Source: Temnopleurus reevesii
Lineage: Eukaryota; Echinodermata; Echinoidea; Temnopleuroida; Temnopleuridae
DNA: 64,000 nt
Direction: 5' to 3'
Assembly (NCBI GenBank): GCA_036244855.1
Contig: BQKZ01000627.1
Span: forward strand, 21,682 to 85,681
In this document: positions 6,917-56,815 of the stretch, one piece after another
How positions within the stretch are numbered: position 1 is the first letter of the stretch
Layout: every line of letters begins with the position of its first letter
Translations under genes and position numbers: made by a program
Notes under the pieces: generated by a model
Told to the model about the DNA's origin: nothing
Database searches by the model: none
The model's input: the letters and a program-made list of their open reading frames with translations, nothing else

Positions 6917-7543
6917 ATGTCTGCCGCCGCTAAGCCCAAAGCCAAGAAGCCCCGTGCTGCCCCATCTCACCCACCCTCCTCCGTGATGGTGGTTGCTGCC
7001 ATCACCGCCTTGAAGGAGCGTGGAGGTTCATCTCTCCAGGCCATCAAGAAGTACATCGCTGCTACCTACAAGGTTGACGTTGCCAAGCAGGCTACCTTCA
7101 TCAAGAAGGCTCTTGCTGCTGGAGTTGCCAACGGAACCCTCGTCCAGACCAAGGGCAAGGGAGCCAGCGGATCCTTCAAGCTTGGAAAGAAACCTGCCGG
7201 CAAGACCGAGGCCCAGAAGGCCCGTGCTGCCGCCAAGAAGGCCAAGCTTGCTGCCAAGAAGAAGGCCGCCAAGGAAAAGAAGGCTGCCAAGGCCAAGGCC
7301 AAGAAGGAGAAGCTCGCCGCCAAGAAGGCTGCCAAGAAGGCATCCAAGAAGGCCAAGAAGCCAGCTGCCAAGAAGGCCAAGAAGCCCGCCAAGAAGGCCG
7401 CCAAGAAGCCAGCTGCCAAGAAGCCCGCCAAGAAGGCCGCCAAGCCAGCCAAGAAAGCCGCCAAGCCAGCAAAGAAGGCCGCCAAGAAACCAGCGAAGAA
7501 GGCCGCCAAGAAGCCCGCTGCCAAGAAGGCAGCCAAGAAGTAA
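6917..7543 (+). CDS. Histone H1 (linker histone, sea urchin late-type)
   Basis: This intronless gene encodes a 208-residue linker histone, which binds nucleosomes at the DNA entry/exit point and compacts chromatin. Residues 1-18 form a short basic Ala/Pro/Lys tail. Residues about 19-90 are the winged-helix globular domain, with the family signatures [22 protein letters not shown] and GVANGTLVQ, ending in [11 protein letters not shown]. Residues about 91-208 form a Lys/Ala/Pro tail of repeated [12 protein letters not shown] units; no SPKK motif is present, unlike sperm H1. The start is supported by the context ATCACCATG, 50 nt after the cap box. A histone stem-loop lies 49 nt after the stop. 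No core histone genes flank it, as expected for dispersed late H1 genes rather than the tandem early cluster. The stage class is inferred from sequence resemblance, so I assign no symbol. The repeated GCCAAGAAG codons create long shadow frames in other frames. Confidence 0.96.
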
Positions 7544-7592
7544 ATTTCTTGCGCCACTTGGTATCTGAGCTTTTTAAAGCTCCAACCCCAAC

Positions 7593-7608
7593 GGCTCTTA
7601 TCAGAGCC
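7593..7608 (+). terminator. Histone mRNA 3' stem-loop
   Basis: GGCTCTTATCAGAGCC is a perfect 6-bp stem with a 4-nt loop, followed by ACCC. This is the canonical replication-dependent histone 3' end that SLBP binds to direct non-polyadenylated processing. It begins 49 nt after the H1 stop codon. Confidence 0.97.
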
Positions 7609-7618
7609 ACCCAAACTC

Positions 7619-7627
7619 CAAGAAAGA
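7619..7627 (+). promoter_or_regulatory. Histone downstream element (U7 snRNA binding site)
   Basis: CAAGAAAGA lies 10 nt after the stem-loop and matches the purine-rich element that pairs with U7 snRNA during histone pre-mRNA cleavage in sea urchins. Together with the stem-loop it argues that the H1 gene is functional and cell-cycle regulated. Confidence 0.93.
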
Positions 7628-7699
7628 TTTCAATTGTTTTGCTCACTTTGTTTTTTTCTGTACTTATTTTTTTTTTCATTTGAATATTATTAACTAAGT

Positions 7700-36464: not shown

Positions 36465-36598
36465 TAAAGCCTCGGTCACATAGCACCCCGGAGGCAACAC
36501 GATTCTCCTCGACTCGTTGTTCTGAGGCAGTTAACTGTGAATTAACAAAGAGTCGGGTGAATTGTGTTGCTTCCGGGTCCTATGTGACCGGAGCTTTA
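36465..36598. mobile_element. Foldback element, family 1
   Basis: A complete copy with TAAAGCCTCGGTCACATAG at the left and a reversed TATGTGACCGGAGCTTTA at the right. It begins about 27 bp after a family 4 copy, so two element types are packed side by side. Confidence 0.85.
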
Positions 36599-42050: not shown

Positions 42051-42260
42051 TTATCCCGTGACTGGGAGTTCGGTTGTCGGTCCTTCCGTCGGAGCCTCTG
42101 TCATTGCGGCAAGATCTCTCTCGACCTGCGTCACCACGGGCTCGAATATCAGAGGGGCCGATAGGATGATGCCTGATGTCCCGCAAATAACGCAAATTAA
42201 AAAAATCCAGAGAAATATCCGGTCGATTACCATGGCGACGTATTTCCAATCTTCTGTTAC
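42051..42260 (-). CDS. nAChR alpha subunit, last coding exon (M4 and C-terminus)
   Basis: Residues 446-514 of the assembled protein. The exon starts after TTATCTACAG with [14 protein letters not shown], the conserved pre-M4 sequence of nicotinic receptors. M4 follows (about residues 455-478, including [16 protein letters not shown]), then an extracellular tail of about 33 residues rich in Glu, Thr and Pro, and a TAA stop at 42051-42053. It joins in phase 0 to the exon at 44707-45700, whose last residues are EDDFNS. The tail is longer than in many neuronal alpha subunits. Confidence 0.95.
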
Positions 42261-44706: not shown

Positions 44707-45700
44707 TGAATTAAAGTCGTCCTCGCTCTTGAGATGCTGTGCAATAAACTTGACACCATCGACGGCCTGCTTGAACTCCTTCGAGTATCTGCCTCCTCCC
44801 TTCGACATTGAGGGCGTGTCCATGTTCGGACTCCCGACGTCATCGGAAAGAGTTCGGAGTTTGAAACTCGGGTGAAGGTTATCAAATATGTCGCGACCGT
44901 TGCTATGAGGGTTTTCCCCATCTTTGTGCACCACCTCCTTAAGTTCAAAATAATTAACGTCCTTTTCCTTGGTATTGTGTTCTGGGTGTATGTGCCTCTT
45001 GGGTCTTTTCATGTACAATATCGGCGGCAAAACTTCGAGGAAGACTTTACGCACCCACGGTCGCATCGTGTGTGTGCTGGGCGCTCTGTAGTGAATGTTC
45101 AGAACGATTACGGTGATGACGATGGAGAGGGTAACGAGGACCATGGTGAAGAGAAGATAGCGACCGATGAGGGGGATAAGAAGGGAGGTCGGGGGAATGA
45201 TCTCCGCGATCAGCAGGAGAAACACAGTCAAGGCCAGAAGCACGGATATACAGAGTGTGATCTTTTCTCCTGAGTCTGAGGGTAGATAAAACACGAGAAC
45301 TGTTAGAAAGGAGATGAGGACGCATGGAAGGATAAGATTGACCGTGTAAAAGAGCGGCTTCCTGCGGATGTGCAGCGTGAATGTAATGTCCGTGTAGATT
45401 TCATCGCAGCACGGGTACTGAACGACATTCTTCTCAGATGGCGTCGAAATGATGTCCCATTCGCCGCTCTGCCAGTAATCTTCCAAATCGACATCGTCGC
45501 TCCAAGGATGCAAGTCGATCAGGCTGCCATCATACGTCCACGATCCAAACTTCATCGGGCATGATTGCTCATCAAAGGGGAAGTATCTGACGTTGATCTT
45601 GCAAGAGCTTTTATAAATAGCAGGTGGGAGCCAATATACCGTGCCGTCGTTGTAAACCAAAGCCTTCGCCATTAGGGTCACCTCGTAGTTACCATCCGCA
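44707..45700 (-). CDS. nAChR alpha subunit, large exon (Cys-loop, M1-M3, cytoplasmic loop)
   Basis: This 994-bp exon encodes residues 114-445 of a nicotinic acetylcholine receptor alpha subunit, a pentameric ligand-gated cation channel of the cell membrane. It starts after TTTCCACACAG with ADGNYEV. The Cys-loop is C147-C161 with YFPFDEQ inside; loop B is FGSWTYD (W168); loop C is YPCCDEIY, whose vicinal cysteines C211-C212 define an alpha subunit. M1 is about 231-253. M2 begins GEKITLC, with Glu259 at -1', Leu269 at 9' and Glu280 at 20', as in cation-selective channels; PPTS follows, then M3 at about 289-314. The cytoplasmic loop is about 130 residues and ends in an amphipathic [15 protein letters not shown] helix. 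The donor is TCA followed by GTAAGC. The closest resemblance is to neuronal alpha2/3/4-type subunits rather than alpha7. Sequence upstream of 45700 in the same open frame is intron. Confidence 0.97.
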
Positions 45701-47102: not shown

Positions 47103-47327
47103 TAGCCTGCGTCAACACAGCGTTTTTGAAAGTTAAAAACGCTCCCCGGACACTCAAAGACGCAAGTCATACAGTGGACTGGAGATCGGCATACGTTCCT
47201 TGAGCGCAAGCGGAACCTCAGTCCCACCTTCTGATCCGCGTACACTGTGCGCTCGGGAAGCGTTTTTAATTTAAAAAAATACGCTGGGCCAACGCAGGCT
47301 AAAACGCAAAGGTGTGAGTCAACCATA
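47103..47327. mobile_element. Foldback element, family 2, in a receptor intron
   Basis: Starts within the left arm (AGCCTGCGTCAACACAGCG), with the outermost bases missing. It ends with AGGCTAAAACGCAAAGG and GTGTGAGTC. It lies in the intron between exon-4 copy E and the large exon. Confidence 0.8.
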
Positions 47328-47547
47328 AGATATGTTGCAAAAGTGGCCTTTATACTTTGAGTTAATTTGATATAGGTACTTCTTCAATCAGGGTCACCAA
47401 CTGTTCTGTTTCCAAAATCAGAACTCAAACAACATTCCCAGAGTCACGTGACTTTTAAAAACGCAGGCTGTGACACAAATGGATCATCTTCATGCGATGG
47501 GGATAAGGTCAAATGAACTATGCATTCAGCCTTCTCTTACTCTGCAA

Positions 47548-47629: not shown

Positions 47630-47824
47630 ACTCGTTGGAGTGTCTGTTTCTTGATGGGGGAATCTAGCACGGCTCTACAGAACAGTATGGTATGAACGGT
47701 GCTGTGCAGCTCCACCCCAATTCATTAATTCCTTCTTGTATTTGGCACTAAAACAACTTATGATTGGTCTTTGTTTGAAGAATAGCGTTCTCTGGTCACT
47801 CTCCTCAAACCATTCCTATCTTAC

Positions 47825-47934
47825 TTGTTGTACAGTATTAGACCAGGGGTCCATATTTCTTGGGACGGTACTCTAAGGACCTCTATATTCTCGTATTCTT
47901 CGAGATCCCACGTGAAACGATAGTCTTTCCATTG
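47825..47934 (-). CDS. nAChR exon 4, alternative copy E
   Basis: An intact 110-bp copy preceded by TTTCAAAGCAG and followed by a GTAAG donor. It encodes QWKDYRFTWDLEEYENI, then EVLRVPSQEIWTPGLILYN and two bases of the next codon. The tryptophan at exon residue 2 is the loop D aromatic, and IWTPGLILYN is loop A. Exon residue 31 is Gly where the family has Asp. Among the copies it shares YRF and PGLILYN with copy A, together with a near-identical donor flank (GTAAGATAGGAATG), although these two are the outermost copies. It should be used in alternation with the other copies, because two together break the frame. Confidence 0.9.
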
Positions 47935-48385
47935 CTGCTTTGAAAAGAAACGACATGGTAATAAGGACAAAACTCTAAAAGAATAACCAAAACCCGGATG
48001 TTGGTTTCATAGGTACTTCCTGTTTTTGATGGCTTCTGGGCATGTGGACACGCAGTTCCCAATTTATACGGTATAGAATAACAACACGTGCCTTTAGGTT
48101 GTTCAAATTATCAGGTAGCAAATCTAGTACACCTGGTGCGCACATTGCTTACACTGCGCGAGATCCCTTCCGTACTAGATGAATACCCGGATGTTCCTAC
48201 CTGGATATGAACAACCATGAAGGCAGGTATTGTCAAAGGAGACGTTAACGTGCTTTGCAGCAAGTTATCTCTTTTCGTTTTGGTTTAATATTTGGGGGTA
48301 CTGCGGGAAACGTCACGAGTGTAGACGAAAGTAGGAAGATGCCCTAAAACCTAGGTAGTACTCTATAAGCATGCAATCTGCTTAC

Positions 48386-48495
48386 TTGTTGTACAAGACC
48401 AGATCTGGGGTCCATATCATTTTAGATGGAACGCGAAGAATGGAGATGTTGTCGTAGTCCACGGGGTCCCAAGTAAGCTTGTAATCTATCCATAA
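48386..48495 (-). CDS. nAChR exon 4, alternative copy D
   Basis: An intact 110-bp copy after AATGAGCAG with donor GTAAGCAG. It encodes [17 protein letters not shown], then [19 protein letters not shown]. It has the normal loop A Asp (PDLVLYN). It differs from copy C at only about 5 of 36 residues, and the AATGAGCAG acceptor flank is also shared, so this pair is the most recent duplication. The spacer between copies D and C is only 80 bp. Confidence 0.92.
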
Positions 48496-48575
48496 CTGCT
48501 CATTATAGTAAAAATAAGATACGTTTGTTAATAGAGTGACTTGTAATTTTGTGTGTTAGGAAACATCATGCTTAC

Positions 48576-48685
48576 TTGTTGTACAAGACTAGGTCTGGGA
48601 TCCAAATCATTTGGGATGGAACACGGAGGATGGCGATGTTGTCGTAGTCCGCAGGATCCCACGTTAGCTTGTAATCGTTCCATAG
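48576..48685 (-). CDS. nAChR exon 4, alternative copy C
   Basis: An intact 110-bp copy with acceptor AATGAGCAG and donor GTAAGCATG. It encodes [17 protein letters not shown], then [19 protein letters not shown]. Of the four intact copies this looks most like the ordinary nicotinic exon 4 (WNDYKL, WxPDxxLYN) and is a reasonable default choice for a reference protein. Confidence 0.93.
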
Positions 48686-48835
48686 CTGCTCATTGTAGTA
48701 AAGACAATACATGTTGATTAATTCAGTAATATGGTACCCTATTCATGAGGAAATATGTTTAGTAGGAGAGCAGAGTGTGTTCGAACAATGTCTGCTCTAA
48801 CTCGTCTAGAGCGGCTGCGAGTACGAACAAATTAT

Positions 48836-48967
48836 ATGCCACATTCGCATAGAAACCCAGAGGCAACACGACTCAACAAGACTCTTTCTTCTGAAGCATT
48901 AAACAGTGAAATGAACAAACAGTCGTGTTGAATCGTGTTGCTTCCAGGGTCCTATGCAACCATTAAA
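48836..48967. mobile_element. Foldback element, family 1, beside the dead exon-4 copy
   Basis: Contains both arms (GGCAACACGACTCAACA and a reversed TCGTGTTGAATCGTGTTGC) with eroded ends. Its right end is about 37 bp from the donor of the exon-4 pseudo-copy B and it lies between copies C and B. Confidence 0.75.
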
Positions 48968-49004
48968 TACATGTGGTGAACGAACACACGCCACTCTCAC
49001 TTAC

Positions 49005-49113
49005 TAGCAGTACTAGATAAGATCTAAGCCCATATCATTTGGGATGGAATGAAGAACACGGAGACAAGGTCGAAGCTCAAAGGGCCCAAAGTGAGCTTGT
49101 AATCTGTCCAATT
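49005..49113 (-). pseudogene. nAChR exon 4, dead copy B
   Basis: The minus strand retains NWTDYKLTLGP, then FIPSQMIWA in frame, clearly an exon-4 copy. It has three lesions. The acceptor dinucleotide is AC instead of AG. The length is 109 instead of 110 bp, because a base is missing after the IW codons. There is also a TAG stop immediately after that point. The donor GTAAGTG is still good. Substitutions such as W to L at exon residue 9 and D to G at residue 10 show relaxed constraint. Confidence 0.85.
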
Positions 49114-49833
49114 GTGGTCTAACCTTTGGTTTATATATTGATTTGTGACTTTATAATAAAGCAATCGATTTAAAACATTACTGATATGAACCTTGGTTTT
49201 AATTGAGAATGTGGGCAATGAGCAGTTTACATACATTTTTATATAATTACCCAAGTTACCTCCGCACAACCCATGTAAAACTATATTTCAGTGTAAAGGT
49301 ATAATATACCAAAGATGATGATAAAAGTAAGATGATGCGCTAAGTTTTACATTGGTGTTTATCAAGCAAACTAGCTCATCTTTCCCGGAGAGAGCTTCTG
49401 GTTGATACAATTCACTGAATGGGCTAATGTCAATAAAAAATGCTATATTGATACATTTCAGAAAGTTACGGTATCCAAATGTCAATGGTTATTTTTTCCA
49501 GCCATTACAAAGGTCAATCAGAAAAAATAAAAGATCTCCTTCTAGAAATACTTCTACAACTAAAAACAGTTTTACATGGTTTTGGGAAGCTATGTTGGGG
49601 GAATTTGACAGGTAAAACTTCACTGCGAGTTACCCACAACTTCCTCTTAACTGATGATCACACAACGAGCAAGTTCAATTACACAGAATGGAATAGGATA
49701 GTTAAAAATGGGTCAGAAATCAAACAACACAGCATTTTGAACACTGGATGTGCTAGAGAAGACCATGCGATGGGTTGAGGCAAATCAACTCTCTCCATGT
49801 GGTAAAGCAATCTGCAAGTCATTCCTATCTTAC

Positions 49834-49943
49834 TTGTTGTATAGAATAAGACCTGGAACCCAAATTTTCTGGGACGGTACTCTAAGAATCGTTATATTAT
49901 CAAATTCGGCTGGGTCCCAAATGAACCGATAGTCATTCCAGTC
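49834..49943 (-). CDS. nAChR exon 4, alternative copy A (first in transcript order)
   Basis: An intact 110-bp copy with acceptor TTTCATTAACAG and donor GTAAGATAGG. It encodes DWNDYRFIWDPAEFDNI, then TILRVPSQKIWVPGLILYN. It is closest to the 45-bp exon in transcript order. Like copy E it has Gly at exon residue 31 in loop A and YRF instead of YKL at residues 5-7. Confidence 0.92.
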
Positions 49944-50101: not shown

Positions 50102-50652
50102 CCTTGGTAGGTTATCATCAGGGTAGTAATAGTACAATGAGTATGGTCCTTGGTAGGTTATGATCAGGATGGTAATAGTCCAATGAGTATAGTCCTTGGT
50201 AGGTTATCATCAGGGTGGTAATAGTCCAATGGGTATGGTCCTTGGTAGGTTATCATCAGTATGGTAATAATCCAATGAGTATGGTCCTTGGTAGGTTATC
50301 ATCAGGGTGGTAATAGTCCAATGAGTATGGTCCTTGGTAGGTTATCATCAGGGTAATAATAGTCCAATGGGTATGGTCCTTGATAGGTTATCATCAAGGT
50401 GGTAATAGTCCAATGGGTATGGTCCGTGGTAGGTATCATCAGGGTGGTAAGAGTCCAATGAGTATGGTCCTTGGTAGGTTATCATCAGGTTGGTAATAAT
50501 CCAGTGAGTATGGTCCTCGGTAGGTTATCATCAGGTTGGTAATAGTCCAAAGAGTATAGTCCTTGGTAGGTTATCATATCATCAGGGTGGTAATAGTCCA
50601 ATGGGTCTGGTCCTTTGTAGGTTATTATCAGGATAGTAGTAGTCAAGTGAGT
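50102..50652. repeat. 46-bp minisatellite, about 12 copies
   Basis: Unit CCTTGGTAGGTTATCATCAG, then GGTGGTAATAGTCCAATGAGTATGGT is repeated head to tail with small substitutions and rare short indels. It fills most of the 850-bp intron immediately upstream of the alternative exon-4 cluster. Confidence 0.95.
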
Positions 50653-50792: not shown

Positions 50793-50837
50793 CTGTTTTA
50801 GCCAAACGTTGGTCGTCATAATTTGGTTCTTTTCGTC
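50793..50837 (-). CDS. nAChR alpha subunit, exon 3 (45 bp)
   Basis: Between TCTTCACAG and GTAATGCG the minus strand encodes DEKNQIMTTNVWLKQ (residues 63-77), the highly conserved exon 3 of nicotinic subunits. The 45-bp length and phase 0 on both sides match vertebrate and insect receptor genes. It is too short to be found by open-frame length alone. Confidence 0.96.
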
Positions 50838-51628: not shown

Positions 51629-51768
51629 AACGTCGATGAGTTGCGACATGGTCAGTCTAAAGTTGACCGTTAAAATATCCGAGTTGTTCTCGACTGGTCT
51701 GATAAGCCTGTTGTACTTGTAAAATAGTTTATTGAATAGTCTCTCCTCAGCCTCTGACGATGTACATC
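51629..51768 (-). CDS. nAChR alpha subunit, exon 2
   Basis: A 140-bp exon between TTTATGTTTCAG and GTAAGTAT. It encodes residues 16-62: the mature N-terminal helix (SSEAEERLFNKLFYKYN), then RLIRPVENNSDILTV and NFRLTMSQLIDV, all standard for nicotinic subunits. Its first codon is completed by the last base of exon 1 (phase 1), and it ends in phase 0 before exon 3. The open frame beyond the donor toward lower coordinates is intron. Confidence 0.96.
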
Positions 51769-56769: not shown

Positions 56770-56815
56770 CTTGTGCAAAGGCGAGGAGCATGATGGCTAC
56801 TATCAAGGATTTCAT
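56770..56815 (-). CDS. nAChR alpha subunit, exon 1 (signal peptide)
   Basis: An ATG at 56815 opens MKSLIVAIMLLAFAQ, a hydrophobic signal peptide, and the exon ends CACAAG before GTAAGCCCC. It contributes one base of codon 16, which exon 2 completes. An acceptor-like TTCTCTTCTTTCAG ends at 56911, so this exon probably extends to 56910 with 95 nt of 5' UTR and a non-coding first exon lies further right. Total coding length with exons 2, 3, one copy of 4, 5 and 6 is 1545 bp, that is 514 residues plus stop. Confidence 0.92.

Follow-up and report, generated by a model that had tools for sequence, protein, structure and literature searches.

Diversity among nicotinic acetylcholine receptors arises largely by mixing subunits of different genes. 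Vertebrate CHRNA genes share an arrangement in which a 45-bp exon 3 is followed by a single 110-bp exon 4 and then by a large exon. Mutually exclusive clusters of the Dscam type consist of tandem exons, one of which is chosen by means of docking and selector RNA. Duplicated receptor exons are described in insects where, in the accessible portions of the respective reports, the alternative exons 4 and 4' of nAChR α4 swap residues of loop E and the Cys-loop (PMC2064938), the Drosophila α4 forms differ "near the Cys-loop" (PMC2045683), and exons 3a and 3b of nAChR α6 are mostly mutually exclusive by RT-PCR, with at most two versions in five insects, and Bombyx can include the two together without loss of frame (PMC1919356). 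The accessible part of PMC2064938 also covers exon 3 variants of insect RDL and GluCl, which change residues near loop D and number three each in Tribolium. For sea-urchin embryos, several nAChR α subunits are reported in PMC12467107, in whose main text, as far as accessible, the word 'splice' does not occur, and the accessible part of PMC8634148 holds nothing on echinoderm exon structure.

Here, we analyzed a 64-kb stretch of DNA over its whole length (the window), which carries on its minus strand an α-type nicotinic receptor subunit gene with several copies of exon 4 placed between exon 3 and exon 5. The gene shares with the vertebrate CHRNA genes the succession of a 45-bp exon 3, a 110-bp exon 4 and a large exon, whereas exon 4 is single there and multiplied here. 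Judged from splice sites, reading frame, early stops and coding constraint, the best reading is that these copies very probably constitute a mutually exclusive exon cluster.

Like the insect α4 pair, which is alternatively spliced, the locus shows tandem duplication of an exon encoding part of the extracellular domain of an α subunit. The insect pair, however, comprises two copies covering loop E and the Cys-loop, whereas the four intact copies found here extend from the end of loop D to loop A. The preliminary description of this DNA had drawn this parallel, and it is correct that an exon-4 pair is known in insects, but a different segment is replaced, leaving a likeness in name only. We rejected identity with the insect α4 exon 4, as the exon here ends just past loop A and the Cys-loop lies in the constant exon 5. 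The insect α6 exons 3a and 3b are likewise duplicated exons of the same receptor family, with two versions at most. Closer in place and copy number than the α4 pair is exon 3 of insect RDL and GluCl, although these are anion channels with three copies, and no loop A switch is described in the accessible part of PMC2064938. With the Dscam-type clusters the locus shares tandem exons of which one would be chosen and a possible docking site following the last copy, but RNA structure is a weak candidate here. At the level of titles and abstract beginnings, the open-licence literature yielded no earlier description of a cluster of this kind for any nicotinic receptor of a deuterostome, in agreement with the preliminary view that one of this size is not known to be described. 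If true, the reading suggests separate origins of receptor-exon duplication in this lineage and in insects.

Gene architecture and the copies of exon 4

Splicing of exons 2-5 with copy c1 (Table 1) resulted in a sequence of 429 residues, which matched the ligand-binding (PF02931, E 1.6e-77) and transmembrane (PF02932, E 3.2e-62) domains of the pentameric channel family. Among PDB chains, neuronal α4 was the best match with an E-value of 1.7e-147, gap-free over query residues 2-332, and the vicinal cysteines of exon 5 align to YECCAEIY of α4. By its domains and the vicinal cysteines of loop C, the gene product is a nicotinic acetylcholine receptor α subunit. The candidate exon 1 is one of four hydrophobic ATG starts, for two of which the donors were inspected. 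No relative was found in viral contigs. The intron between exon 3 and c1 contains a 46-bp minisatellite of about 12 copies (50102-50652).

Table 1 Positions of the receptor gene exons, the copies of exon 4 and associated candidate features in the window
Feature	Position	Strand	Length	Description
Candidate exon 1	56770..56815	-		Putative signal peptide MKSLIVAIMLLAFAQ; donor AAG/GTAAGC; phase 1, compatible with exon 2
Exon 2	51629..51768	-	140 bp	Start of ligand-binding domain; aligned to neuronal α4
Exon 3	50793..50837	-	45 bp	Constant; encodes DEKNQIMTTNVWLKQ including the loop D Trp (NVWLKQ)
Exon 4, copy c1 (class A)	49834..49943	-	110 bp	DWNDYRFIWDPAEFDNITILRVPSQKIWVPGLILYN; loop A W-V-P-G
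Exon 4, decayed copy (class B relic)	~49005..49113	-		Approximate ends; GTAAGT donor kept
Exon 4, copy c3 (class B)	48576..48685	-	110 bp	36 residues; loop A W-I-P-D
c3-c4 intron	48496..48575	-	80 nt	Branch-point candidate TTAAC, consensus match only
Exon 4, copy c4 (class B)	48386..48495	-	110 bp	36 residues; loop A W-T-P-D
Exon 4, copy c5 (class A)	47825..47934	-	110 bp	QWKDYRFTWDLEEYENIEVLRVPSQEIWTPGLILYN; loop A W-T-P-G
Candidate docking site	47793..47822	-		Directly downstream of c5, overlapping the c5 donor; can pair upstream of each intact copy
Exon 5	44707..45700	-	994 bp	Remaining ligand-binding domain with the vicinal cysteines of loop C (YPCCDEIY), TM1-TM3, cytoplasmic loop
Exon 6	42051..42260	-		TM4 and C-terminus; phase 0; stop at 42051-42053

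The copies c1, c3, c4 and c5 each possess their own AG acceptor and GTAAG donor, with entry in phase 0 and exit in phase 2 (two bases over). The decayed copy starts without an AG (TTAGACCAC) and has lost one base, immediately followed by an in-frame TAG, its donor still being in place. Four intact copies and a dead one, flanked by exon 3 and the large exon, had been proposed before, and the coordinates, acceptors, donors and phases were all confirmed. Searching the window with the four copies by tblastn retrieved five places on the minus strand, namely the intact copies, with E-values of 1e-17 to 2e-13 among different ones, and the decayed copy (6e-8 to 3e-4). No sixth copy was detected by tblastn within the window, the remaining matches (E of at least 0.003) being the copies read on the opposite strand and short, scattered hits. 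The pattern AG, 110 bp, GTAAG occurs nine times on both strands of the 64 kb; four occurrences are open in phase 0, and these are the four intact copies, as each copy fits the pattern.

At c3, c4 and c5 the acceptors are NAGNAG tandems (48686, 48496 and 47935), which could add one Gln beside loop D, whereas c1 is without such a tandem. The donors of c1 (49820-49833) and c5 (47811-47824) share 14 identical bases (GTAAGATAGGAATG) despite a synonymous divergence (dS) of 1.16 between the two exons; this common stretch may be a control element or a remnant.

Exon 4 and the switch in loop A

We take exon 4 to correspond to residues 59-94 in muscle α1 numbering, anchored on Trp55 (NVW), Trp86 and Tyr93. 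The exon thereby contains loop A with Trp86, Pro88, position 89 and Tyr93, and it starts at position 59, four residues past the loop D Trp55 of the constant exon 3. The preliminary description had assigned both loop A and the loop D Trp to the alternative exon. Its assignment of loop A stands, whereas the loop D Trp is encoded by exon 3 (NVWLKQ, 50837-50793), as established by the splicing and the alignment to α4, which rule out a location inside the alternative exon.

Among the intact copies, 17 of the 36 positions differ. Position 89 is Asp in c3 and c4, as in the corresponding segments of α4 and α3, and Gly in c1 and c5, so that the loop A motif reads W-x-P-D-L in the former and W-x-P-G-L in the latter two copies. 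The motif published for cation-selective Cys-loop receptors is W-x-P-D-I/V, thus with I or V following the Asp, according to the accessible part of PMC4006026. As recounted there, the loop A Asp was first given a role in agonist recognition through hydrogen bonds to loop B, and a later study (Cashin 2007) described a redundant hydrogen-bond network in which hydrogen-bond accepting by the Asp is not strictly needed (PMC4006026). With two copies of the W-x-P-D and two of the W-x-P-G type, exon choice would switch a conserved agonist-site aspartate, and such a switch of loop A between the two motifs would be what is new here. The Gly forms are expected to bind with changed kinetics or affinity; the size of this effect is uncertain and, since hydrogen-bond accepting by the Asp is not strictly needed, the functional consequence is possibly modest.

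At position 59, which is Trp+4 of loop D, Asp is found in c1, Leu in c3 and c4, and Gln in c5. In other receptors, the residue at Trp+4 of loop D influences ligand selectivity. Together, we infer that the choice of a copy would retune acetylcholine binding and assembly mainly via loop A, with W-x-P-D (c3, c4) versus W-x-P-G (c1, c5), and additionally via position 59 beside loop D and the segment 66-76. If true, one gene would encode a single stretch of the binding pocket in four forms, including natural isoforms with or without the loop A aspartate conserved in the cation-selective family, and such natural loop A variants would be useful for testing the part of this Asp in agonist binding.

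Inclusion of single copies and coding constraint

Translation of the combinations of intact copies, taken in genomic order, showed that all 12 products other than the single inclusions (no copy, six pairs, four triples and all four) stop at residue 64-114. As 3 x 110 is divisible by 3, triples are not excluded by length; they are excluded by stops within the second copy. The early stops in 12 of 12 cases indicate that single inclusion alone works, bearing out the earlier claim that skipping or doubling breaks the frame and that one copy has to be chosen. The locus shows two sequence hallmarks of a mutually exclusive cluster: homologous exons arranged in tandem that agree in length and phase and have their own splice sites, and unproductive outcomes when intact copies are skipped or included in number (12/12). 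The proposal of such a cluster holds up at the level of the sequence, apart from the placement of the loop D Trp and the insect α4 parallel discussed above. The copies would accordingly be spliced one at a time, and a single α-type subunit gene would give rise to up to four isoforms, each including exactly one of the four copies of exon 4, while wrong products with skipped or multiple copies would be lost as non-productive mRNA.

The copies c1 and c5 form class A, and c3, c4 and the relic form class B, giving the genomic order A-B-B-B-A, with a support of 0.996 for class A on an unrooted tree of the five copies and the relic being placed in class B by identity. Class B matches neuronal α4 in 22-23 of 36 residues and class A in 17-18. 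The copies c3 and c4 differ in 18 of 108 bases, 12 of them third positions, corresponding to a dN of 0.07, a dS of about 1.0 and five substituted residues among 36; c1 and c5 show 28 base differences, 17 at third positions (dN 0.20). Third codon positions hold more than half of the differences in all six intact pairs; for four of these pairs dS was not computable. We simulated neutral divergence for four of the six pairs with 10,000 runs each, using a single-hit scheme that is rough for saturated pairs, and residue changes as few as observed were obtained in 0 percent of the runs for c3-c4, c1-c3 and c4-c5 and in 0.04 percent for c1-c5. A stop was acquired in 55-78 percent of the neutral runs. 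By these measures, the intact copies as a set are under coding constraint.

Polarizing the c3-c4 differences by c1 and c5 assigned seven changes to the c4 branch, four of them non-synonymous, and four to the c3 branch (one non-synonymous), with seven ambiguous (one non-synonymous). Constraint therefore holds for the set and is not demonstrable for c4 by itself, and given that one copy has already decayed, others are possibly decaying too. Both points speak for a reading in which one or two copies are used, for example one of class A and one of class B, the remaining intact copies being relics or acting as poison exons to reduce expression, a role that extra copies could serve because multiple inclusion stops early. 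This is difficult to reconcile with acceptor, donor and frame being intact in all four copies, and with a c3-c4 pair that has accumulated about one synonymous change per site at so few residue changes, a result reached in none of the 10,000 neutral runs. We consider such a restriction to one or two copies rather unlikely compared with the use of the four copies as a mutually exclusive cluster.

Choice among the copies and further features of the window

For the mutually exclusive cluster we next consider the signals that may direct the choice. The acceptors of the four alternative copies contain 9-12 pyrimidines in 17 positions versus 13-15 at the four constitutive acceptors. Weak acceptors suit regulated exons, and these pyrimidine-poor sites would let cell-type factors choose the copy. 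In the short intron between c3 and c4, the branch-point candidate TTAAC is favored over three others; its A is separated from the donor by 48 nt and from the acceptor by 32 nt. A donor-to-branch distance of 48 nt is near the minimum known in vertebrates. With an intron of 80 nt and a likely branch point at this distance, joining of c3 to c4 is probably disfavored. The remaining gaps between adjacent intact copies amount to 1148 nt (c1-c3) and 451 nt (c4-c5), and exclusivity there is not explained by spacing. The hexamer TGCATG, which we take to be the Rbfox motif, occurs once, after c4, against an expectation of 0.99 for the interval separating exon 3 from exon 5, and is thus not enriched. A hairpin at about 48847-48957 (-58.6 kcal/mol) was dropped as a splice regulator, being a repeat to which the sequence at 36479-36584 is related. 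This repeat, located between the decayed copy and c3, is probably a mobile element.

A further possibility, which may complement the mutually exclusive cluster, is that competing RNA structures set the choice, the docking site after c5 pairing with the upstream selector of one copy at a time. We scanned 30-nt segments in 15-nt steps between exon 3 and the vicinity of exon 5, excluding segments touching intact copies. When the pairing energies with the four upstream regions were summed, the candidate docking site ranked as the strongest segment (-84.5 kcal/mol). The best segment reached this sum in none of 120 dinucleotide-shuffled sets (0/40 in an earlier run), and for the candidate site alone, which had been chosen beforehand by the scan, none of 300 sets of random stretches reached it. 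Pairing of the same segment with the four constitutive acceptors sums to only -65.2, and docking sites located downstream are described for the insect 14-3-3zeta, Mhc and MRP1 clusters in the accessible part of PMC6071210. Nevertheless, the worst of the four pairing energies was equalled by 6 of 120 shuffles (1/40 in the earlier run), and the single energies overlap, with -16.3 for c1 versus -18.3 for the exon 5 acceptor and -19.9 for the exon 6 acceptor. The site is, moreover, purine-rich opposite pyrimidine tracts, an ordinary cause of pairing, it overlaps the c5 donor, and the decayed copy pairs with it as well (-19.2). The same scan with the regions downstream of the copies gave nothing beyond the shuffles (26/40 and 22/40 as good). 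The docking site is a suggestive lead, and we regard control by RNA competition as a tentative proposal that is more doubtful than probable. Equally speculative is the combined scenario in which such docking-site competition would turn the loop A aspartate on (c3, c4) or off (c1, c5), resulting in differing agonist kinetics or in a weakly binding accessory subunit.

That the copies are an assembly artefact, with haplotypes or reads laid in tandem, is barely credible: an N near 37.5 kb and many repeats do point to the window probably being a draft assembly, but the intact copies agree in just 62-84 percent of 110 aligned positions and have differing flanks, and are thus too divergent for alleles.

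Elsewhere in the window, an open reading frame for linker histone H1 (PF00538) on the plus strand (6917-7543) is followed by a histone 3' stem-loop (7588-7632), the one match of an Rfam scan of the window. This histone gene presumably resembles sea-urchin H1, which would agree with an assignment of the DNA to the echinoderms. A minus-strand open reading frame of 387 residues with a reverse-transcriptase domain (PF00078; 34412-35575) belongs to a retroelement, and a repeat at 47103-47336 has family relatives near 16.5, 21.0, 53.6 and 57.5 kb of the window.
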